NCBI RefSeq assembly: GCF_003003795.1
Contig: NZ_PVWK01000123.1
Coordinates: 1-64,000 of the forward strand
Direction of reading: 5' to 3'
Length of the DNA: 64,000 nt
Source: Stenomitos frigidus ULC18
Lineage (GTDB): Bacteria > Cyanobacteriota > Cyanobacteriia > Leptolyngbyales > Leptolyngbyaceae
Shown piece after piece: positions 2,793 to 59,940 of this stretch. A program made the translations under genes and the position numbers. The notes beneath the pieces were generated by a model. That model was not told the DNA's origin and searched no databases. It was given only the letters and a program-made list of their open reading frames with translations. Positions within the stretch are counted from its first letter, which is position 1, and each line of letters starts with the position of its first letter.

Positions 2793-4523
2793 CTAGAACA
2801 AGAAGTAGCGTTGTGCCATGGGGAGGACGGTGGCGGGTTCGCAGGTGAGGAGTTCTCCGTCGGCGCGGACTTCGTAGGTTTCGGGATCGACTTCCATTTT
2901 GGGTGTGGCATCGTTGAGTTTCAGGTCTTTCTTCGTGAGCTTGCGGATGCCGGAGACCGCAACAGCTTTCTTTTGCAAACCGAGTTGGTCGGGGATGCCT
3001 TTCTTGAGCGCAGCTTTGGAGACGAAGGTGAGGGAGGTTGCCGCGATCGCGCCGCCAAAACTAGCAAACATCGGGCGCATGTGAACTGGCTGCGGGGTGG
3101 GAATGCTGGCGTTGGCATCGCCCATTTGCGCCCAGCCGATCAAGCCACCTTTGATGACCATTTCGGGCTTCACGCCAAACATAGCCGGTCGCCACAGGCA
3201 CAGGTCAGCCAGCTTACCAACTTCGACGGAACCAACATGGTTGGCGATACCGTGGGTGATCGCGGGGTTGATCGTGTACTTGGCGATGTAGCGTTTGGCG
3301 CGGAAGTTGTCGTTGCGGTTGTGGGATTCGACGGTGCCTTCGGTGTGGGGAGCCAACCAGCCGCGATCGAACTTCATTTTGTGGGCGGTTTGCCAGGTGC
3401 GGATGATGACCTCACCGATGCGTCCCATTGCCTGTGAGTCAGACGACAGCATACTGAAGGCTCCAATGTCGTGCAGGATATCTTCAGCGGCGATCGTTTC
3501 GCGACGAATGCGGGATTCAGCAAAGGCAACATCTTCGGCGATCGCGGGATCAAGGTGATGGCAAACCATCAGCATATCCAGATGTTCATCCAGCGTGTTT
3601 TGGGTGTAGGGACGTGTGGGATTGGTGGACGAGGGCAAGACATTGAGTTCGCCGCAGATTTTGATGATGTCGGGTGCGTGTCCGCCACCTGCACCTTCGG
3701 TGTGATAAGTGTGAATAACGCGATTTTTGAACGCCGCGATCGTGTCCTCGACAAAGCCTGCTTCGTTCAACGTATCGGTGTGGATAGCGACCTGCACATC
3801 ATAGTCATCGGCAACACTCAGGCAGGTGTCGATCGTCGCAGGTGTCGTGCCCCAGTCCTCATGGAGCTTCAGACCGATCACGCCTGCTTCCACCTGTTCC
3901 ACCAATCCTTCTGGCTTTGCGCTGTTGCCCTTACCCGTAAAGCCAATGTTAATGGGAAAGGCATCGGCCGCTTGTAGCATCCGGTAAATGTTCCAGGGGC
4001 CGGGTGTACAGGTGGTGGCGCTCGTTCCTGCAGCTGGCCCGGTGCCACCACCCACGAGCGTCGTGACACCAGACGCGATCGCTACTTCAATTTGCTGGGG
4101 ACAGATAAAGTGAATATGGGTATCAATACCACCTGCGGTGAGAATCATGCCTTCACCCGCAATCACCTCGGTACCGGGCCCAATGATGATCGTCACATTG
4201 TCTTGAATATAGGGATTCCCAGCTTTGCCGATCGCGTGAATTTTGCCGTCCTTAATGCCAATATCGGCTTTAACAATGCCCCACCAGTCGAGAATGAGCG
4301 CATTGGTAATCACTGTATCCACTGCACCATCGGCATTTGTAATGGGTGACTGCCCCATGCCGTCGCGAATGACCTTGCCGCCGCCAAACTTGACTTCATC
4401 GCCGTAGGTGGTGTAGTCTGCTTCGACTTCAATGATCAAATCGGTATCGGCTAACCTGACGCGATCGCCCACAGTGGGACCAAACGTTTCCGCATAGGCG
4501 CGGCGATTCATTCTGTAACTCAT
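2793..4523 (-). CDS. ureC: Urease subunit alpha (UreC)
   Basis: 576 aa, the usual length. It is the catalytic subunit of nickel urease (urea to ammonia and carbamate, EC 3.5.1.5), acting in the cytoplasm. All nickel ligands are visible: His136 and His138 in DTHIHF, the carbamylated Lys219 in GLKLHEDWG, His248, His274 in HTYHTEG and Asp362. The mobile-flap CHH (321-323) is also intact. The ATG at 4523 follows GGAGTCCCC, a suitable RBS. It lies at the 3' end of the minus-strand urease block but is separated from ureB by about 2.8 kb carrying a P450, a DUF2237 gene and a DUF1579-like gene. With 168 bp upstream it may have its own promoter. No ureE, ureF or ureG is in the window. Confidence 0.97.
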
Positions 4524-4691
4524 GGGGACTCCTCACTCCAATTCTGTAACCGATCAAACATTGTGCAACCCTAGCGATCGCATCACGATCCGCGTTTGCC
4601 ATTGGGGCTTCAGCTTCCTTAGAATACCGCTCTAGCCGTCTTTAGCGAGTTAAATCGACGACAGAATCGGCGATAAACTGTTGGACAAGCA

Positions 4692-5297
4692 TCAAATTGG
4701 TTCACTTGCTTTGCGGCACGTTTCCTTCAGCACAGGTTGCCAGTCTTTTTTCACCAGATCTGCTTGTTCGTAGGCGGCTTCAAACGCGCGATCGCCCGTT
4801 TTCACGATCGTTTGTCGCAGCCCATTTCTCTGGGTGCCGCGCACCACGCTGCCTTCCCAGACCCACTTGTCATCAGACCAACCCTCTGATAGCAGATTAA
4901 TAAATTGACCATCACCTGTCAAAATGGTGCGTCCAAAGCGCTTGGTCAGGGTGTTGTAGCCTAGCGTGTCGTGAGTGATGGCAATATTTTGCTTCGTTGA
5001 CACCTGCCCCAAAAACCAGAAGTTGTTGAGTTCGCGCTTGATTTCCCAGGTAAACGGTTCTGCGGGTCTGTTAGCAGGAGCACCCACTGGTTTGACCACA
5101 CACAACCACTTGCCCTGAAAGTATTGCAGTTGTTCTAATTGAGGATCGGGCTTGGGCAACGCAGACGTGGGTGGTTCAGCCGCATAGGCAGGGAAGACTG
5201 CCAGAGTGAGGGCGATCGCAGACGCAACTAGACAGACGCGATCGCCACATGTGGAACCGCAGTATGCGTGAGGGCGGCAAGTCTTGCAAGCAAGCAT
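4692..5297 (-). CDS. Putative secreted DUF1579-like protein
   Basis: 201 aa. A hydrophobic segment (VCLVASAIALTLAVFPAYA, about residues 21-39) ending in AYA-A looks like a signal peptide with a long, Cys-rich n-region, so the protein is probably exported. The mature part (LQYFQGKWLCVVKP, then FWFLGQVSTKQNIAITHDTLGYN) has the layout of DUF1579-type proteins, which begin with a short 'leG.W' motif and end in a set of beta strands. Function unknown. It lies on the urease strand between DUF2237 and ureC, 33 bp downstream of the DUF2237 stop, so co-transcription is likely. The DUF1579 assignment is tentative. Confidence 0.6.
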   Translation of the reverse strand: MLACKTCRPHAYCGSTCGDRVCLVASAIALTLAVFPAYAAEPPTSALPKPDPQLEQLQYFQGKWLCVVKPVGAPANRPAEPFTWEIKRELNNFWFLGQVSTKQNIAITHDTLGYNTLTKRFGRTILTGDGQFINLLSEGWSDDKWVWEGSVVRGTQRNGLRQTIVKTGDRAFEAAYEQADLVKKDWQPVLKETCRKASEPI

Positions 5298-5330
5298 AGA
5301 ATTTCCCTGATTAAATTTCTGCTGAGGGCT

Positions 5331-5708
5331 TTAGTTCACTGATAGATCCAAAGCGTGTTCCTTCAAGACCGCCAGTGGTACCACATTGAGAGTGGCCTCA
5401 TGGGTTGCAGACAGCAGAATTGGGGGTGCTGCGCCTGCATCCAACGCTTCTTTCCAGCGTGCAACGCATAAACACCAATGATCACCAGGCTTTAACCCTG
5501 GAAAATTATATGCCGGGACTGGCGTACTCAAATTATTGCCTCTAGCTTTTGTGAAGGCTAAAAACTCTTCGGTCACTTGAGCGCATACTACATGCGTGCC
5601 CAAATCTTGCGGCCCTGTTTCGCAGACACCATTACGGAAAAAGCCGGTCATGGGATCGGTGCAGCAAAGCTCAAGTTTTTTTCCCATCACATTCTTTGCG
5701 TCTGTCAT
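5331..5708 (-). CDS. DUF2237 family protein
   Basis: About 125 aa from the ATG at 5708, which is preceded by GGAGCAGGAGC; an upstream in-frame start at 5768 would add 20 residues that do not fit the family. The sequence KNVMGKKLELCCTDPMTGFF and the later GDHWCLCVARWKEALDAG and PPILLSATHEATL are characteristic of DUF2237, a small bacterial family with conserved Cys residues and no established function. It sits downstream of the P450 on the same strand with a gap of about 90 bp. The family is widespread in cyanobacteria, often as a single-gene unit, so its position inside a urease cluster may be accidental. Confidence 0.8.
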   Translation of the reverse strand: MTDAKNVMGKKLELCCTDPMTGFFRNGVCETGPQDLGTHVVCAQVTEEFLAFTKARGNNLSTPVPAYNFPGLKPGDHWCLCVARWKEALDAGAAPPILLSATHEATLNVVPLAVLKEHALDLSVN

Positions 5709-5799
5709 GCCTCTGCTCCTGCTCCACCGCTTGGCTGTATCGATCGTACGACTAATGGATGGAAACACGATCGTCCACCATTTTATAATCCATTCAACT

Positions 5800-7188
5800 T
5801 CAGCTCAAACTCGGTTCCAATACGGATGGCTGGTGAGTCTGTTTGCCTTTGACGATCAGATGCACGCCCCCTTTGGGTCGTAAGAGTGCGCCACCTCTCG
5901 CAGGTTGGACAGGCTGATCGTCTGCCAAGGCAAATTTCCAGTGCTGCAACAGTGTGACGAGCACCAGCTTCATTTCAAACTGGGCAAACGCCATGCCAAT
6001 GCAGCGACGATTGCTCCCGCCAAAGGGCAAATACTCATACGGCGCAAAGGAATGCTCTAGAAAACGTTCTGGTTTGAACTGGTTGGGTTCTGGGTACAGC
6101 TCTTCACGGTGATGGGTCAAATAAATGCAGGGAACCAGCAACGTTCCCGGTTCAAAGTGGTGACCCATAATCTCGATCGGTGCTTTGACCACACGATTGA
6201 GTGCCAACATTGCCACAGGATAGATGCGAAAGGTTTCCTGGCAAATGGCATTCAAATACGGCAAGCGCATGATGGCGTTGAGATCGGCTGGGTTTTCTAA
6301 CGTGTTCAACTCTTGCTGCAAGCGCTCATGCACGTGTGGCAAGGAGTGAACCCAATACATCGCCCATGCCAGCATCGTTGCCGTCGTTTCATGACCCGCA
6401 ATGAGAAGCGTCATTAACTCATCACGCAGTTCCACATCGGTCATGGGCTCTCCGGCTTCATCGCGTGCGGCCATCATTAACGATAAGATGTCGCTGCGAT
6501 CGCCATCCGGCTGCGATCGACGCTCTTGAATCTCGGCATAGATTAAATTGTCGATCGCTTTCAGCTTTTGGAGGAATCGCCCCCACGGACTCCAGGGTCC
6601 AAAATCTCGCTGCAACACGGGGAAGAGAAACAATAGCCCCTGAAGTAATGGCTGACCGGGGTTTAACTGTTCCAGGAGTAACGTTTGAAGTGCCTGGGCT
6701 CGCGTTCCTTCCTGTAAGCCAAACACGGCTTTGAGAATAATTTGGAAGGAAATCTGCTGCATGAGGGAGACGGCAACCAGATGGTCATCGATCGCCCACG
6801 ATGCCGTTGCTTGCAGAGTCAACTCGCGAATGAGTTGACCATAGGCAGTCATCCGTTCGCCATGTAGCGGTGGCGTTAACAGCCGTCGTTGCCTGCGGTG
6901 TGGTTCGCCTGCGATCGTCAGCAATGACTGTTCGCCCAACAGCGGTGAACGAATACCCGCATCGGCTCCTGAATCGAGGTTTTTGGGATCGGTGGCAAAA
7001 ATCTCTTGAATTGCACGCGGATGGCTGACAAACACCTGCGGCGAAAACAAGGGTCCAATTTTGACAGTAAAGATATCACCATACTGTTGTCGACAGGTTT
7101 CCATAAAGGCGAGTGGGTCTTTAAGCCACTGCACCGTTTGCATCATTGGACTAACCTCAGGACCGGGGGGCAGTTGAGTCGTAGGCAT
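5800..7188 (-). CDS. Cytochrome P450, CYP110-like
   Basis: 462 aa. A soluble heme monooxygenase with all hallmarks: I-helix AGHETT (264-269), K-helix ExxR as ETFR (318-321), the PERF region (FKPERF) and heme loop FGGSNRRCIG with axial Cys396. Overall it resembles the cyanobacterial CYP110 family, whose members oxidise fatty acids, alkanes or terpenoids; the substrate here cannot be read from sequence. The ATG at 7188 follows AAGGATTTAGCCACT, a usable RBS. No ferredoxin or reductase gene is adjacent, so redox partners must be encoded elsewhere. It splits the urease structural genes (ureB upstream, ureC downstream), an unusual place for a P450. Confidence 0.93.
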   Translation of the reverse strand: MPTTQLPPGPEVSPMMQTVQWLKDPLAFMETCRQQYGDIFTVKIGPLFSPQVFVSHPRAIQEIFATDPKNLDSGADAGIRSPLLGEQSLLTIAGEPHRRQRRLLTPPLHGERMTAYGQLIRELTLQATASWAIDDHLVAVSLMQQISFQIILKAVFGLQEGTRAQALQTLLLEQLNPGQPLLQGLLFLFPVLQRDFGPWSPWGRFLQKLKAIDNLIYAEIQERRSQPDGDRSDILSLMMAARDEAGEPMTDVELRDELMTLLIAGHETTATMLAWAMYWVHSLPHVHERLQQELNTLENPADLNAIMRLPYLNAICQETFRIYPVAMLALNRVVKAPIEIMGHHFEPGTLLVPCIYLTHHREELYPEPNQFKPERFLEHSFAPYEYLPFGGSNRRCIGMAFAQFEMKLVLVTLLQHWKFALADDQPVQPARGGALLRPKGGVHLIVKGKQTHQPSVLEPSLS

Positions 7189-7287
7189 AGTGGCTAAATC
7201 CTTCGGTATTGGTCAATGCAAAGCGTTACTGACCTTATATTTTCCTGCGAGAAAAGACTCTAATGTATGGATTCTAGCAATCAGCCC

Positions 7288-7644
7288 TTACTTTTTCTTT
7301 TTCCCTTCATTTTTCTTCTTTCCGTCGCTTTTCTTTCCGTCCAGGGCTCCATCAATTTTGTTGTTGAGGCCATAGACTTCGCGGCTACCTGCAAGGGCAA
7401 CCAGCGTCACGTCTTTTTCGTCGCCTGGTTCAAACCGTACCGCTGTACCTGCGGGAATATTCAAACGCATCCCACGAGCCCGATCGCGATCGAATCTCAG
7501 CGCTTGATTAACTTCGTAAAAATGGAAGTGGGAGCCGACTTGAATCGGTCGATCGCCGGTATTTGCCACAGCTAGCGTCGCTGTTTCGCGTCCTGCATTT
7601 AATTCAATCTCGCCGTCTTCAACAAACAGTTCACCTGGGATCAT
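7288..7644 (-). CDS. ureB: Urease subunit beta (UreB), with lysine-rich tail
   Basis: 118 aa starting MIPGEL, the family's usual N-terminus. The ATG at 7644 follows GGAGTGACT, while the GTG at 7650 would only add two residues. Conserved blocks [20 protein letters not shown] and [15 protein letters not shown] are intact. Small structural subunit of the urease trimer, with ureA 32 bp upstream and ureD before it. The end is odd: after [10 protein letters not shown] the usual short terminus is replaced by about 18 residues, mostly Lys, Gly, Asp and Glu ([17 protein letters not shown]), encoded by an A-rich low-complexity stretch. This tail is probably disordered and exposed. Confidence 0.95.
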
Positions 7645-7676
7645 AGTCACTCCATTAGTTGATTTTTAGCGAACGT

Positions 7677-7979
7677 TTAGCGAATGGGATCGTGTACAGT
7701 AACGAGTTTTGTACCATCAGGAAAGGTCGCTTCAACCTGTACTTCATGGATCATTTCAGGAATGCCTTCCATCACATCACTACGCGATAGCAATGTTGTA
7801 CCGTGGCTCATTAATTCAGAAACCGTGCGTCCGTCCCTGGCACCTTCTAAAATGGCAGCCGAGATGTAAGCGATCGCTTCAGGGTAGTTCAGCTTTAGCC
7901 CACGCTCTTTGCGGCGTTCTGCCACCAGGGCGGCCGTGAAAATCAGTAGTTTGTCTTTTTCTTGTGGCGTTAGTTGCAT
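7677..7979 (-). CDS. ureA: Urease subunit gamma (UreA)
   Basis: 100 aa, exactly the family length. It starts [26 protein letters not shown], contains [21 protein letters not shown] and [20 protein letters not shown], and ends [10 protein letters not shown] as in other UreA proteins. Forms the urease heterotrimer with UreB and UreC. The RBS AAGGATTGAACA precedes the ATG. It lies 14 bp downstream of ureD and 32 bp upstream of ureB, so the three genes almost certainly form one transcript. Confidence 0.97.
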
Positions 7980-7993
7980 TGTTCAATCCTTAC

Positions 7994-8827
7994 CTATGAC
8001 ACTCCCCACACTCTTGGTACGCAACCAGAGCAGCCTAAGAATGATAAGCGGATTAGTCGCCAAACTTCAACAAACCACTGCCGTACTGCCGTTGTTGAAT
8101 GTCCGCGATAGCGACACAGCAAGCCCGATTGCAACCGGGTCACGCCAAAGTCACCCATGTCATTTGTCCACAGCGATCGCGCCTTTTCGATGAATTCAGC
8201 CTCCACTGCCTGTCCCACAAAGGCAAAACTACCGACCACAGGGCACCCCCCTAAGCCGTGAGTGCCATGAAAGGACGCCTCACTGCCAGGGAGCCATTGG
8301 CGATCGATCCACAAGGGCTGCCCCTCCTGCCAGATTTCAGTCTGCGATCGCCAGTTCCCCTGCAAAAACTGTTCGCCCCTGGCACTGCGCCCAAAGCGAG
8401 TGATCTCCCAGCCCAGCCAGGTAGCACCAGGAGCCAGTTCGATGCGCATGTCCTGCTGATACATTGCCTGTTCAAAGACGATCGTTTCCTGCGGTAGCCA
8501 CTCGAGACGAGCGCCAGTCGCGACTTTGACATGAGTAGTTTGTCTCGCCTCTAAGCCATTCGTGCGATAGATTTTGCCCGCCGAAGCCGTGGTGATCAAC
8601 GCCTGCGTCTGTGGTTGCAGTTGGATATCAAGCGAGAGCCGATCGCCGCCCACAATCCCACCGGCCGTGTGCAAAATCACGTTGTGGCAAACCGCTTTCC
8701 CTTCTGGATAGAGCGATCGCTGGATTTTGAGGGGTGCCTGTGCTTTGGATGAAGCCACGTGGGTGGAGTCTTCACGATTGGCATAGATTAACTGTAAACT
8801 GCCATGCCATCCGGAATCGATTGTCAT
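7994..8827 (-). CDS. ureD: Urease accessory protein UreD
   Basis: 277 aa. UreD (UreH) is a scaffold in the UreDFG complex that loads nickel into apo-urease. Diagnostic parts are HNVILHTAGGIVGGDRLSLDI near residues 48-68, the TTASAGKIYR motif, LEWLPQETIVFEQA and the C-terminal VWRLIRLSFLGCSGCVPRVW. It is the first gene of the ure run, 38 bp downstream of the LRR gene on the same strand, so it either has a promoter inside that gene or is read through from it. The partner genes ureF and ureG are not in the window. Confidence 0.95.
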   Translation of the reverse strand: MTIDSGWHGSLQLIYANREDSTHVASSKAQAPLKIQRSLYPEGKAVCHNVILHTAGGIVGGDRLSLDIQLQPQTQALITTASAGKIYRTNGLEARQTTHVKVATGARLEWLPQETIVFEQAMYQQDMRIELAPGATWLGWEITRFGRSARGEQFLQGNWRSQTEIWQEGQPLWIDRQWLPGSEASFHGTHGLGGCPVVGSFAFVGQAVEAEFIEKARSLWTNDMGDFGVTRLQSGLLCRYRGHSTTAVRQWFVEVWRLIRLSFLGCSGCVPRVWGVS

Positions 8828-9966: not shown

Positions 9967-10413
9967 ACAGTCTAAACAATTAGCCCACTAAAGACAACCA
10001 GCAATACCAGCGCCCAACAGGTCTATACAGTTCTACAGCACTGTCGCACGCTTGCTCATACCCATCCTTTCCTGACCCTAATGGCAGTTTGGTAATCCTG
10101 TCATCAGGCTGAACCAGCCTAAGCAGAAAGACCTGACTGTGGATGATGAGCGATCGCAGCAAATGTGATAAAAGCTACAGATTGCACTCAGGCTTGACAC
10201 TAGAGTCTAAACGTTATCTGAACCTTTGAATGCTGATTCAGAGGCAATCATAGTGGGTTACTGCGGGTTTTAGCCCCAGGCATGTGCAGATTTGATTTTG
10301 CTCGCTTGTTGCTACTAGAGGCATTAGCAGGAGTTGAGAACAGCGATCGCTGCAATCTGTTTGGTGAACCGTGCAGAATTTTGTTGAAGTAGGTAGGTGC
10401 GTAGGAGCGTTTT
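9967..10413. other. Intergenic region between LRR gene and formamidase
   Basis: Divergent intergenic region of about 450 bp. Apart from the NtcA-type promoter described separately (10165-10206) I see no gene. The RBS for fmdA (GTAGGAGCGTTTT) lies at its right end. Confidence 0.6.
10165..10206 (+). promoter_or_regulatory. Putative NtcA-activated promoter of the amide gene cluster
   Basis: GTG-N8-TAC at 10165-10178 (GTGATAAAAGCTAC) is followed by exactly 22 nt and then TAGAGT (10201-10206). This matches the class-II cyanobacterial NtcA promoter (GTA-N8-TAC, 20-24 nt, TAN3T) with one deviation, GTG for GTA. It lies about 210 bp upstream of fmdA on the same strand. NtcA, the global nitrogen regulator responding to 2-oxoglutarate, would induce the genes under nitrogen limitation. 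The prediction rests on pattern and spacing only. Confidence 0.6.
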
Positions 10414-11619
10414 ATGCCTAAAACATTATTTCAAGTCGATCTAACGAAGCCGATGGATCAGCAAGATCTGCCGGGACATAATCGCTGGCACCCGGATATT
10501 CCAGCAGTCGTGTCTGTTAATCCTGGCGATGTCTTTCGGATTGAGTGCAAAGATTGGACAGACGGTCAGATTAAAGATAATGACAGTCCCGATGACATTC
10601 GTGATGTCGATTTAACGGTCGTTCACGTTTTGAGTGGACCGATCCACGTGAATGGCGCAGAACCTGGCGACATTCTGGTCGTCGATTTGGTTGACATTGG
10701 TGCCCTTCAAGGCGACGAATGGGGTTTTACAGGCATTTTTGACAAGAAAAATGGGGGCGGTTTTTTGACCGATCATTACCCCGATCCAGCGAAAGCGATT
10801 TGGGATTTTCAGGGCATTTACACCACCTCTAGACACATTCCAGGCGTTAAGTTTGCGGGCATTATCCATCCTGGTTTGATTGGTTGTGCGCCATCCCATG
10901 AGCTGTTGGCAAAGTGGAACAAGCGGGAAAAAGAACTGGTAGACACGGCTCCCGATTTGCGGACGTATGGCGCTGGTCTTTCGGGCGACAAGCCAGTACT
11001 GGCAGCGCTACCCAATCCCACCAACGCGATTCTTGGACAATTGCCCAAGTCTGAGTTCGAGCGCGTGGCAGCTGAAGGCGCACGCACCGTTCCACCCCGT
11101 GAGCATGGCGGCAACTGCGATATCAAGAACCTGTCCAAGGGCACCCGCATTTACTTCCCGGTCTACGTGGAAGGTGGAAAGCTATCCATGGGTGATATTC
11201 ACTTCTCTCAAGGGGATGGTGAAATTTCCTTCTGTGGCGCGATCGAAATGTCGGGCTACATTGATATTCACGTAGAGATCATCAAAGGTGGTGTTGAGAA
11301 GTATGGCATGATTAATCCCATCTTCAAGCCCGGTCCCGTTGAGCCTCGCTTCTCGGAATACCTGGTGTTTGAAGGTATTTCGGTGGATGAGTTCACTGGC
11401 AAACAGTACTACATGGATGTCCATATTGCTTATCGGCGTGCGTGCTTGAACGCGATCGAATATCTGAAGAAATTCGGCTATACGGGCGAACAAGCCTACC
11501 TGCTACTGAGCTGTGCTCCGGTGGAAGGTAGAGTGAGCGGCATTGTGGATATTCCCAACGCCTGCTGTACAGTAGCCATTCCAACGGCAATCTTCGACAA
11601 ACCCATTCTTCCTGTGTAA
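10414..11619 (+). CDS. fmdA: Formamidase (acetamidase/formamidase family)
   Basis: 401 aa. It hydrolyses formamide (and less well other short amides) to formate and ammonium (EC 3.5.1.49). The N-terminus MPKTLFQVDLTKPM, HNRWHPDIP, GDVFRIECKDWTDGQIKDND, the GPIHVNGAEPGD turn, the HPGLIGCAPSHELL segment and EHGGNCDIKNLSKGTRIYFPV are those of the FmdA_AmdA family described from Methylophilus. Length is normal. The RBS is GTAGGAGCG ahead of ATG at 10414. The next gene, fmdB, encodes the family's usual zinc-ribbon companion, and amiE follows. The upstream NtcA-type promoter suggests nitrogen control. Confidence 0.93.
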   Translation: MPKTLFQVDLTKPMDQQDLPGHNRWHPDIPAVVSVNPGDVFRIECKDWTDGQIKDNDSPDDIRDVDLTVVHVLSGPIHVNGAEPGDILVVDLVDIGALQGDEWGFTGIFDKKNGGGFLTDHYPDPAKAIWDFQGIYTTSRHIPGVKFAGIIHPGLIGCAPSHELLAKWNKREKELVDTAPDLRTYGAGLSGDKPVLAALPNPTNAILGQLPKSEFERVAAEGARTVPPREHGGNCDIKNLSKGTRIYFPVYVEGGKLSMGDIHFSQGDGEISFCGAIEMSGYIDIHVEIIKGGVEKYGMINPIFKPGPVEPRFSEYLVFEGISVDEFTGKQYYMDVHIAYRRACLNAIEYLKKFGYTGEQAYLLLSCAPVEGRVSGIVDIPNACCTVAIPTAIFDKPILPV

Positions 11620-11755
11620 AAAGAGTTTTTAGTTGTTAGTTGTTGGTTTTTAGAGGTGGATTTGGAACCTGATGGTGTTTGGAGAAACGATCTTCAGTCT
11701 CAATCCTCTGATCAACTAACAACTAACAACCAACAACCAACAACTATTAACCAAA
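11620..11755. repeat. Heptanucleotide STRR block in opposite orientations between fmdA and fmdB
   Basis: On the left, TTAGTTGTTAGTTGTTGG starts near 11627; on the right, CAACTAACAACTAACAACC and CAACAACCAACAACT run from about 11717 to 11747. The two blocks are the same 7-bp repeat (AACTAAC or AACCAAC) in inverted orientation and could fold into a long imperfect stem in the fmdA-fmdB transcript. This kind of short tandemly repeated heptamer is known from filamentous cyanobacteria. Confidence 0.7.
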
Positions 11756-12022
11756 ATGCCTCTTTACGAATTTAAATGTGACGACTGTGGTGTGTTTGAT
11801 CAGTGGCGATCGATTGCAGAATGCAACGATCCGGCTAGCTGTCCCACCTGTCAGGGTGCAACCAGACGCCTCTTTTCAGCACCCGCTTTGTTATCCGGAT
11901 CCCTGCGGTTGAAAAAGGAAAGCCCAGAACCGCAGCTCGTGCAACGATCGAACGATCGTGAGCCAGAGCGTCCTAAAGCCCAAACGCATAATGGTGGACG
12001 TCCTTGGATGATTGGTCATTAG
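11756..12022 (+). CDS. fmdB: FmdB-family zinc-ribbon regulatory protein
   Basis: 88 aa. The N-terminal zinc ribbon is complete: MPLYEFKCDDC (Cys8, Cys11) and CPTC (Cys29, Cys32). It is followed by RRLFSAPALL and a charged, low-complexity tail ending GGRPWMIGH. FmdB-type proteins accompany formamidase genes and are called putative regulators; their biochemical role is not established. It lies 136 bp downstream of fmdA. The upstream spacer is filled by heptad repeats and shows no strong RBS (ATTAACCAAA precedes the ATG). Confidence 0.9.
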   Translation: MPLYEFKCDDCGVFDQWRSIAECNDPASCPTCQGATRRLFSAPALLSGSLRLKKESPEPQLVQRSNDREPERPKAQTHNGGRPWMIGH

Positions 12023-12062
12023 CTTGCCATTGGGTTTATGGAGCTATGTTCGACACGGTTTT

Positions 12063-12104
12063 GTAGCCAATGCTACAAGGTAGTCTTTATGGAGCCGATA
12101 AACT
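12063..12104 (+). promoter_or_regulatory. NtcA-activated promoter of amiE
   Basis: A perfect NtcA box GTAGCCAATGCTAC (12063-12076) is followed by exactly 22 nt and TAAACT (12099-12104), a TAN3T -10 element. This is the canonical class-II NtcA promoter and lies about 105 bp upstream of the amiE start. Box, spacing and -10 all fit, so I consider this a strong prediction of nitrogen-starvation induction. Confidence 0.75.
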
Positions 12105-12209
12105 GCTAATTCGATAGCTAAAGCCTCTTGTCAGTGCTTTAGATTGTCCTGCACGCAAGAGGTTTGTGTGGACAAATTTGCATCGAGCAAAGATTATTAG
12201 GAGGCCTTC

Positions 12210-13292
12210 ATGTCTTATCACGGTGATATTTCGTCCAGCAATGATGCTGTCGGTGTTGCAGTCGTCAATTACAAAATGCCACGCCTTCACACGAAGGAAG
12301 AAGTGTTGGCAAACTGTAAAAATATTGCCTCCATGATTGATGGGATGAAGGTTGGTCTGCCAGGGATGGATCTGGTGATTTTCCCGGAATATTCCACCCA
12401 CGGCATCATGTATGACGCCAAAGAGATGATGGAAACCGCTTCATCCATCCCTGGGCCAGAAACGGACATTTTTGCTGAGGCGTGTATCCGCAACAAAACC
12501 TGGGGCGTCTTTTCACTCACCGGCGAACGCCATGAAGACCATCCCAACAAGGTGCCTTACAACACGCTGATTCTGATGAACGACGAAGGTGAGATCGTTC
12601 AAAAGTATCGCAAAATCATGCCCTGGACGCCGATCGAGGGTTGGTATCCCGGCAATTGCACCTACGTGTCAGACGGTCCCAAGGGTTTGAAGATTAGCCT
12701 GATTATTTGTGACGACGGCAACTATCCCGAAATCTGGCGCGATTGCGCCATGCGAGGCGCTGAACTGATTGTGCGTTGCCAGGGTTATATGTACCCTGCG
12801 AAAGAGCAGCAAATCATGGTGTCGAAGGCGATGGCATGGATGAATAACGTCTATGTTGCAGTGGCAAATGCGGCTGGTTTCGATGGCGTTTACAGCTATT
12901 TTGGACATTCCGCGATCGTGGGTTTTGATGGTCGCACCTTGGGCGAATGTGGTGAAGAAGATATGGGCGTGCAGTACGCGGCGCTCTCTAAGTTTGCCAT
13001 TCGTGACTTCCGCAAGAATTCCCAGTCTCAGAACCATCTGTTCAAGCTGCTGCACCGTGGCTACACAGGCATGATTAACTCTGGTGAAGGGGCTGAAGGT
13101 GTGCAAGAGTGTCCTTACGAGTTCTACCGCACCTGGGTTAACGATCCTGCGAAAGCAAAGGAAATCGCCGAATCCATCACTCGACCCACCGTGGGCGTCA
13201 AGGAATGCCCGATCGAAGGGTTGCCCACCGAAAAGCTTGCTGAAACGCCACTGGTTGTGAAGGAAAAAGAAACGGTCTTACTGAATAACTAA
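12210..13292 (+). CDS. amiE: Aliphatic amidase
   Basis: 360 aa. Nitrilase-superfamily amidase (EC 3.5.1.4) that hydrolyses short aliphatic amides such as acetamide to the acid and ammonium. It is very close to Pseudomonas AmiE along its length. The catalytic triad is present: Glu60 in FPEYS, Lys135 in KYRKIMPW and Cys167 in [40 protein letters not shown] is the typical N-terminus, and AGGAGGCCTTC precedes the ATG as a very strong RBS. It has its own NtcA promoter and ends in a good terminator (13327-13358), so it can be transcribed alone. A degraded second copy lies at about 59.7-59.9 kb. Confidence 0.96.
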
Positions 13293-13326
13293 CCCTCTTG
13301 CATTCCATCATTGCTGTCTTTCACCG

Positions 13327-13358
13327 AGCGTCCACATAAACATGTGGGCGCTTTTTTG
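13327..13358 (+). terminator. Rho-independent terminator of amiE
   Basis: Stem AGCGTCCACAT / ATGTGGGCGCT with loop AAAC, followed by TTTTTT. It starts 35 bp after the amiE stop. Confidence 0.85.
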
Positions 13359-16885: not shown

Positions 16886-17053
16886 GGTTAAGAAGATTGT
16901 TTGGATTTTAGCCTACGCCTATGCTGATTTTTTTCGCTAGCAATATCAATTAAAGCAGCCTTTGATTGTGATTCACCTCGTCATACAGTACTGTAAATTG
17001 GTTTACATGACTGGCTCACATAGCTGGTTTACATGGCGCGTGAGGGCAGAGCA

Positions 17054-40350: not shown

Positions 40351-41439
40351 TGTTACCTCTTTAGTAAATTCCAGCATCGGCTTAGCACCACTGGTTTGAG
40401 CAATGGTGAAGGCTGCGTGCTGCGTACTGAATTAGAACGGTAGGCATTTTTTCACCATGCGCTACCACTACAAAGCCTTGATATGAGTCAATCTTTCGGC
40501 GTGCTATCCGGTTGCCTAACAACTACTTGAGGCAACTTTTTTTCAATCGCGAGTTGTTACTTATGACAAATAAATTTATGTCTGCTTACAGCAATACTAT
40601 TGATGGAAAATTGAAAATTAATTTCCCATACAGCAGCTATTAATGATATCAAAAGTACAAATTCAAAGCTGTAGCTTTGAACGACTGATGGTATTAGCAG
40701 CAATTATAAGGACATGGAATGGTTGATCAAAAACAAACCAATAGCAACAAATGTACTGACGAGCGCAATACGTAGCCGAGCTTGATTAGTAATGGCTATT
40801 CGTTAACGAATAAAGATAGGGTCAATTAAAGATAGGGTGGATGCATCCAGAACTATGCCCTTGATTGATGAGGAGTACTACTAAGATTCAGTCCCAATTC
40901 ATGGTGCAGTCGTCACTGTAGTTCCTTATCTATTCCTTATCTATAAGAGAACTCATTACCTATTAGGAGCTATAGGAATTACCACGCCATCAAGATTAAC
41001 AAGATTCAGTAGAGCCCCGAAGTATCTACCAACCTTCGTACAGTAAATACTCTCTGCAATAAAATAAATATACGGTATAAAAGTGTGACTATCTTTGCGT
41101 GTTCATACTGAATCATGATTTCTTGATTGAATAACGTGACACTGTATTTTTTTGGTAAATCTAGCCTTACAAAGGCGGATGTCTTTATTCTCTACAGAAT
41201 AAAGATAGTTGGGGTTTCAAAGTTTTGGCGGCACGAGCGTCATCATCTGAGGTTTTTTGTCTTTTGCAAATTCCGTACGTCTTTTATGAAGGGGCACCAG
41301 CTCTGAGTGACGTTTAAACACAGGCTGATGATGGAGTAATCTGGTTCATAGCAGCATCCGAAAACATATCAACCATGTACGTTCTGATACTCTTACGTTG
41401 CTCTAGCCTTGCTAGCGTTAGGTAGTGGTTGTAGGTAAG
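40351..41439. other. Gene-free AT-rich kilobase with several palindromes
   Basis: No frame of 60 codons or more on either strand. Structures seen: GTTGCC...GGCAAC followed by seven T (40511-40543, plus strand, terminator-like without an upstream gene); TTCAAAGCT-GT-AGCTTTGAA (40662-40681); the 16-bp perfect palindrome TATTCGTTAACGAATA (40797-40812); two copies of TAAAGATAGGGT immediately after; TTCCTTATCTA twice (near 40922-40945); and TCTTTATTCT-CTAC-AGAATAAAGA (41182-41205). It may be a degraded element or a regulatory/sRNA region. Confidence 0.6.
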
Positions 41440-58478: not shown

Positions 58479-59237
58479 TTACGACTCCTGTTCCAAAAGC
58501 TTGAGTGTTTGCAATTCCTGTTTGCCATATTGTTGCAGCCAGCCCCAAACCAACACGGTCAGCAATCCTTCACTAATGGCTAAGGGCAGTTGAGTGATAG
58601 CAAAAATGCCTGCAAACTTAATGAATGAGGCAATAAAGCCACCCTGCACAGCCGGAAAGGCCAAGGCCAGTTGTACAGCGGTCATCAGATAAGTCAGCAA
58701 ATCTTCCAATGTGGCAGCCAGAAACACTGCCAGCTTTTGCTTGCCTGTTTTCATCACTGTTTTGTAAACCACATAGGCAACCAGTGGGCCGACGATCGCC
58801 ATGGAAAACACGTTTGCACCCAACGTCGTAATGCCACCATGCGCGAGTAGAACGGCCTGGAACACCAACACCAGGCTACCCAATACCGTCATTGTCAATG
58901 GACCAAACAGAATTGTGCCTAGCCCAGTGCCTGTGGGATGTGAACAACTGCCAGTGACCGATGGAATCTTTAAAGCAGAGAGGACAAAGGTGAAGGCACC
59001 TGCCAATGCCAACAAAAGCTTTAATTCAGGATTTTGTTTTGTAATGCGGGTGAGCGATCGCAGCCCCACCAGAAAAAACGGTAGTGATACCGCCCACCAA
59101 AACACTGCCCACTGCACAGGCAAAAAGCCTTCTGCAATGTGCATTGCAGACGCAGGCGTAGCGGAACCCAACAGCAAATAGCAACTCAAGCCAGCCATTA
59201 ATCCCAGGTTGACCCATTTCCGATAGCGTGTCTTCAT
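58479..59237 (-). CDS. cbiM: Cobalt ECF transporter S component CbiM
   Basis: 252 aa from [16 protein letters not shown] at 59237 (RBS GCGAGGTACAGG); a start at 59273 would lie within the riboswitch. A signal-like leader is cleaved before MHIAEGFLP. The new N-terminal Met-His-Ile is needed for Co2+ coordination in this family, so the A-M junction of [11 protein letters not shown] is diagnostic. [22 protein letters not shown] carries the further metal-binding His. Controlled by the cobalamin riboswitch, which fits cobalt rather than nickel uptake. Confidence 0.94.
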
Positions 59238-59274
59238 CCTGTACCTCGCAGATAAGACGATGTTGTAGGGCAAT

Positions 59275-59445
59275 TCGGCAGGCGTTCTGACTTAAAGAGT
59301 GTTAAGTGTTCGTTTCTAACCTTCGAGTTGGACTAACTCAAAGCTCAAAACTCAAAACTCAAAACTTTTTTCACAGTTGCGGGACAGCGGTAGAATCGCA
59401 CTACACTTTCCCTGTTACCTCCGACGGTTGCTCCCCGTCAGAACC
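59275..59445 (-). ncRNA. Cobalamin riboswitch of cbiMNQO
   Basis: On the minus strand: GGAGGTAACAGGGAAAGTG, then GCGATTCTACCGCTGTCCCG and CAACTGTGA, and, closer to cbiM, AAGTCAGAACGCCTGCC (the B12 box). These are the conserved elements of the AdoCbl riboswitch in the right order. Between CAACTGTGA and the B12 box the peripheral arm contains about five AGTTTTG/GTTTTGA heptads (59338-59368). With sufficient cobalamin it would shut off the cobalt transporter. Outer boundaries are approximate. Confidence 0.9.
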
Positions 59446-59508
59446 GAGTCGTGGACTCAGCATACATGATTAGTAAGATCTTAGAAACGTTTGCAAGGGA
59501 GTTCTGCC

Positions 59509-59940
59509 TCAGATGTTACGGCTGAAGTTTTTGCCGCATTTGAAGTGCATAGTGCTCCTTGGTTTTTCCTTGTCTGAGGTAGAGTGACGCTGCTTGCTGG
59601 CAATCGGCGCTTCCAGATGGATGGGAGTGAACGCGGCCTCAGTCGAGGCTGCTTTAATGAGTGGAACCTCGACTGGTGAATCAAACAAACGTGCAATGAA
59701 CGTACGCAATAACCGAAAAGGTTCTTCACCGGGGATTGTTGCCGCTGTTTCCATCATTTCTTTGGCGTCATACATGATGCCGTGAGTGGAATATTCCAGA
59801 AAAATCACCAGATCCATCCCCGGCAATCCAACCTTCATTCCATCAATCATTAAGGCAATCTTGTGACAATTCTCAATGACTTCTGCATTGTGTGCAGGCG
59901 CGGCATTTTGTAGTTAGCCATAGTTATAAGACTACCCATC
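59509..59940 (-). pseudogene. amiE: Frameshifted, truncated amiE remnant
   Basis: On the minus strand from about 59925, NYKMPRLHT is followed after a one-base frameshift by [20 protein letters not shown], then [30 protein letters not shown] and TIPGEE. This matches residues 20-85 of the intact amidase at 12210-13292; DNA identity over 129 bp (59722-59850) is about 87% by hand count. The catalytic FPEYS has become FLEYS. After PGEE the frame continues 70 codons of unrelated sequence to 59509. Neither Lys nor Cys of the triad remains, so it is non-functional. Confidence 0.85.

Follow-up and report, generated by a model that had tools for sequence, protein, structure and literature searches.

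The fmd cluster of Methylophilus methylotrophus has the gene order fmdCDEF-fmdA-fmdB. The cyanobacterial locus described here shares with it an fmdA gene followed by the small zinc-ribbon gene fmdB; related cyanobacteria also have a urt-type ABC transporter beside these genes. Different from the Methylophilus cluster, this locus has no adjacent transporter, it includes an aliphatic amidase gene (amiE) that has a promoter of its own, and it is proposed to be under NtcA control. On the regulatory side, urtA, nirA, ntcB and glnA have been named as genes with canonical NtcA promoters (PMC3898017). The promoters of fmdA and amiE resemble these class II promoters in having a GTA-N8-TAC-type box, 22 nt to a TAN3T element, no -35 element and a nitrogen-assimilation gene downstream; what differs is that the putative targets, namely fmdA, amiE and an exported FmdA paralogue, are not named as NtcA targets in the papers searched, and that fmdA has GTG in place of GTA. 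The strongest NtcA ChIP-seq region of Anabaena PCC 7120 contains a GTG box, GTGTGTCTTGATAC, followed after 22 nt by TATGCT (PMC3898017). It has the same GTG, N22 and TANNNT as the fmdA promoter but belongs to another gene, and it was bound in vivo there, whereas the fmdA site is known from sequence. Since the top region in Anabaena has a GTG box at 22 nt, the GTG is no obstacle at fmdA.

The window, that is, the whole stretch of DNA that was analysed, is 64 kb long. Within it, fmdA is located at 10414-11619 (+) and its product is assigned as formamidase by NCBIfam NF045496 (FmdA, 673 bits against a cut-off of 500). The string GTGATAAAAGCTAC-N22-TAGAGT occupies positions 10165-10206, 249 nt 5′ of fmdA, and consists of a putative NtcA box (10165-10178 (+), extended form TGTG-N8-TACA) and a -10 box (10201-10206 (+)) that recurs in relatives as TAGAGT or a near variant at N22 or N23. 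The box has the weaker GTG form, yet TAC is present and the core agrees with GTN10AC. Six of the seven genus members have GTG at this place; the remaining one, the sister species G034, has GTA, and so do most other genera. From the -41.5 rule, transcription of fmdA is predicted to start near 10212-10213. A TTGACA at 10194 is situated just 1-2 nt 5′ of the -10 box and is absent in the genome G039, and the promoter listing contains no sigma-70 -35/-10 pair that uses the -10 of fmdA or amiE. The 200-nt leader of fmdA gave no riboswitch match in Rfam.

The aliphatic amidase gene amiE is located at 12210-13292 (+) (NF009802, 711 bits against a cut-off of 427). An assignment of AmiE as an AmiF-type formamidase was rejected, with the AmiF model giving only 266 bits against a cut-off of 406. 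The string GTAGCCAATGCTAC-N22-TAAACT is found at 12063-12104, 147 nt 5′ of amiE. Its putative NtcA box (12063-12076 (+)) is a perfect TGTA-N8-TACA, the -10 box TAAACT (12099-12104 (+)) follows at N22, and class II geometry predicts a transcription start near 12111. A terminator-like stem-loop of the intrinsic type, with a 12-pair stem and then the T run TTTTGATTGT, is present 3′ of amiE at 13326-13353 (+). The sequence-only reading of this DNA had given both strings and had called the genes fmdA and amiE; the strings are exactly there and both names are upheld by scores above cut-off. It had also pointed to the identical 22-nt spacing of the two promoters, which is true and is simply the canonical class II geometry.

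Between the two genes lies fmdB (11756-12022 (+)), which encodes an fmdB-type zinc-ribbon protein (TIGR02605, 63.5 bits against a cut-off of 31.3) and follows fmdA in nearly all the cyanobacterial loci examined. The interval between fmdA and fmdB (11624-11754 (+)) is occupied by heptamer repeats, AGTTGTT and CAACTAA, whose arrays at 11624-11653 and 11713-11754 are inverted to one another and form a long hairpin (MFE -43.5 kcal/mol, z -4.4). An attenuator or an RNA-processing site is a possible role for this hairpin.

We consider it highly probable (about 0.9) that fmdA(-fmdB) and amiE are two adjacent units, each with its own NtcA-dependent class II promoter. Upon nitrogen limitation, 2-oxoglutarate would rise, and NtcA together with PipX, known as its helper from model cyanobacteria, would bind the GTR-N8-TAC box about 41.5 nt 5′ of the start, where it would replace the -35 element. 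The bound NtcA would recruit RNA polymerase to the TANNNT -10, with starts at about 10213 and about 12111. Formamidase and aliphatic amidase would then hydrolyse formamide and short-chain amides, supplying glutamine synthetase with ammonium, and the promoter of its own would keep amiE under nitrogen control whether it is positioned behind fmdB, before fmdA or elsewhere. What is shown is the sequence of the sites, their conservation, the identity of the genes, the presence of NtcA and the recurrence of this architecture at known targets in the genome; NtcA binding, activation, start sites and physiology at the two genes are what we infer. In Arthrospira PCC 8005, both the protein and the mRNA of FmdA rise under nitrogen limitation (PMC4509649). 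In a literature search with Giner-Lamia 2017 and Su 2005 outside its reach, no paper described either fmdA or amiE as being under the control of NtcA, and an earlier prediction is possible.

Could both matches be coincidental? An 8-base pattern this degenerate might have been picked out by eye, and the genes might be transcribed from other promoters. The counts in this DNA are at the level of chance or below it. In the 64-kb window, the relaxed pattern GT-N10-AC-N22-TANNNT has 4 matches against 3.7 expected from shuffles, and in the whole genome (6.98 Mb) the exact GTA pattern has 18 matches against 40 for the reversed control, with no enrichment. The claim therefore rests on conservation and on the genes behind the matches. 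For conservation, the upstream DNA of 36 amiE and 79 fmdA orthologues from the class was compared. Within 300 nt of upstream sequence, GTR-N8-TAC-N22-TANNNT is present in 12 of the 12 amiE regions of the same order; each of these has TARACT or TATGAT as its -10 at exactly N22, while the distance of the pattern to the start codon varies from 71 to 262 nt. The corresponding pattern with N22 or N23 is present in 15 of the 18 fmdA regions of the order, with a TCAC variant in one further region. Box, 22-nt spacing and TANNNT -10 are all conserved, while the spacer itself diverges in sequence. The background of GTR-N8-TAC-N22/23-TANNNT, taken from unrelated DNA and the window, is about 0.003 per 300 nt; the binomial P counted by genus is about 6e-11 for amiE and 1e-14 for fmdA, values that treat genera as independent and are hence optimistic. 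Even with shared ancestry ignored by these P values, the margin of the footprint over background is very large. Across the class, 23 of the 36 amiE regions have the pattern at N22, and no other spacer length between 8 and 40 reaches a count above 5; for fmdA, 16 have it at N22 and 11 at N23, and 22-23 is the only peak. When all 64 triplet dyads were ranked, GTA came first for amiE (22 genomes against a mean of 0.13) as well as for fmdA (19 against a mean of 0.48), and an unbiased 4-mer dyad scan of fmdA upstream regions from 45 genera placed TGTA-N8-TACA second, behind the HIP1 repeat GCGATCGC. At any reasonable background rate this footprint refutes coincidence, which we regard as the least probable of the readings considered.

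The other two rivals each concern one of the sites. The fmdA site might be bound by a SyCRP1-type cAMP receptor protein, which recognises TGTGA-N6-TCACA, so that only amiE would be controlled by NtcA. Six of the seven genus members do have TGTGA as the left half of the fmdA box, other CRP-family proteins are encoded in the genome, and CRP-activated cyanobacterial promoters likewise have TANNNT about 22 bp downstream (PMC2633013). However, every genus member has CTACA or TTACA as the right half and none has TCACA, and the GTA found as the left half in G034 and in most other genera suits NtcA but not CRP. A CRP site was rejected on its right half-site and on the relatives, and is very unlikely. 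At amiE, the palindrome at 12058-12081 was called as a stem-loop with a weak T-rich tail and might be the terminator hairpin of fmdB, in which case transcription of amiE would depend on read-through or on a promoter that has escaped notice. The relatives, however, keep only GTA...TAC and its distance to the -10; the stem is not preserved (GTAGTCATCGTTAC, GTATTCGAGATTAC), the tail is not T-rich, and the box is also present where amiE is not behind fmdB. With a stem that is not conserved, the terminator reading was rejected, and this explanation is a shade less plausible still than CRP binding at fmdA, though a little ahead of coincidence.

The genome encodes NtcA itself (contig C80, 101878-102456; TIGR03697, 391 bits against a cut-off of 245), and the genes behind its other likely sites speak to the NtcA reading of fmdA and amiE. 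Among the 18 exact matches, ten are not inside a long ORF and are followed within 400 nt by the ORF of a recognisable gene. Of these ten genes, eight are nitrogen-related: nirA, glnA, urtA, an ntcB-like LysR gene, a cytosine permease gene, an amino-acid-type permease gene, amiE and a gene for an FmdA paralogue; the other two encode a penicillin-binding protein and a MOSC-like protein. The LysR regulator is read as NtcB-like, NCBIfam giving only general LysR matches. The match to the NtcA class II consensus in box, spacing and -10, on which the sequence-only reading was built, is therefore borne out, each of the three being conserved and the same architecture being found at nirA, glnA, urtA and the ntcB-like gene. 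The paralogue is a distant FmdA of 432 aa with a twin-arginine (Tat) signal, and GTA-N8-TAC-N22-TAGGAT is positioned 84 nt 5′ of its gene (contig C73 of this genome, G000, 7180-7221 (-), locus L204); it is a candidate exported amidase of the NtcA regulon. All in all, fmdA and amiE are very probably additional members of the known NtcA regulon, ordinary in kind.

Two further sites were noticed in the window. GTACGTTCTGATAC-N22-TAGCGT at 41377-41418 (+) is 49 nt 5′ of an ORF that resembles a MOSC-domain protein (281 aa, no NCBIfam match) and may be either an NtcA target or a chance match. A perfect TGTA-N8-TACA, TGTAAATTGGTTTACA, at 16992-17007, 26 nt 5′ of a hisA-like ORF, is probably due to chance.

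The order fmdA-fmdB-amiE is found in most of this genus and also in genus g9. In two relatives (G018 and G019) the order is amiE-fmdA, and in G034 the two genes are on different contigs; in all three, each gene keeps its box. In another (G004), amiE is present without fmdA and keeps its own box. Because each copy of amiE and fmdA keeps its own box through rearrangement, amiE appears to be separately promoted, and its status as a transcription unit with its own promoter is supported; the separate control of amiE that had been suggested earlier holds up in these unlinked and order-reversed copies. A single fmdA-fmdB-amiE operon lacking an amiE promoter was rejected, given the conserved box and -10 before amiE in 12 of 12 cases, unlinked copies included. 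amiE may also be reached by read-through from the fmdA promoter. In G212, urtABCDE-fmdA-fmdB is contiguous and a box precedes urtA. For many fmdA genes outside the order, no canonical box was found within 600 nt, so their control is different or acts through an upstream gene.

The window also bears on the history of amiE. In G034, fmdB and the DoxX gene have no amiE between them, and amiE is found next to cbiM. In the window, a decayed amiE remnant of 56 codons (59719-59886 (-)) is found beside cbiM (58479-59273), with 93% identity to the G034 enzyme over 54 residues and 80% to the intact AmiE of the window. In the protein tree, the fmd-linked AmiE enzymes (the genus without G034, together with g9; support 100/99) form a clade apart from the G034 enzyme, and the -10 of the surviving copies is TARACT in the fmd-linked clade and TATGAT in G034. 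Most simply, this would reflect an ancestor that possessed both copies, followed by loss of different copies in different lineages. A cobalamin riboswitch (Rfam RF00174) is located at 59260-59463 (-), just 5′ of cbiM.

The leader of fmdA contains a second dyad, TGAATGCTGATTCA (10227-10240 (+)), with the consensus TGAAY-N4-RTTCA, 20 nt 3′ of the -10 box. Its role may be that of a repressor operator or of a 5′ RNA hairpin. A tentative refinement of the NtcA explanation, compatible with it, is that fmdA takes two inputs: NtcA would activate, and a second regulator (or a leader RNA hairpin) at the dyad would gate transcription, possibly sensing amide, while amiE would answer nitrogen status alone. 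We regard this as possible though rather doubtful. TGAA-N6-TTCA is enriched at fmdA (16 of 79 upstream regions against 1.2 in shuffles), its distance downstream of the NtcA -10 is fixed, at 18-20 nt within the order and at 1 nt in Gloeomargarita-like genomes, and no TGAAY-N4-RTTCA dyad is found at amiE upstream regions. On the other hand, most genera lack the dyad, as does one member of the genus, and it could be a 5′-UTR hairpin. TGAAY-N4-RTTCA occurs at only 21 places in the whole genome, mostly inside genes, and the sites examined give no coherent target set and no second intergenic target that would point to a regulon.

The nearby urease genes had been cited in favour of a nitrogen-scavenging regulon, a view that is supported in one respect but not in another. 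A head-to-head arrangement of ureD and fmdA, in some cases separated by an LRR gene, recurs in this genus and in further genera of the order, and also in Microcoleus, Pseudanabaena, Phormidium and others; the neighbourhood is therefore a conserved nitrogen locus. By contrast, scans of the window gave no convincing NtcA box with a -10 facing the urease/LRR side, and a facing box was found in only 1 of 11 divergent ureD-fmdA pairs of relatives. The urease genes themselves (2793-8827 (-)) are interrupted: a cytochrome P450-like gene and two more ORFs stand between ureD-ureA-ureB and ureC. Rfam gives a match to 5_ureB_sRNA at 4082-4372 (+), antisense to ureC; its probable cause is the conservation of the urease coding sequence and not a real antisense RNA.

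Taken in this way, a large group of filamentous cyanobacteria would have amide hydrolysis, by cytoplasmic formamidase and aliphatic amidase and probably by the Tat-exported FmdA paralogue, as part of its nitrogen-scavenging regulon, and the evolutionary evidence for NtcA control of the amide genes is strong enough to act on. The fmdA promoter has, in addition, a second conserved element that has been undescribed so far. The gene amiE, for its part, would be a mobile gene that carries or regains its NtcA switch through rearrangements.
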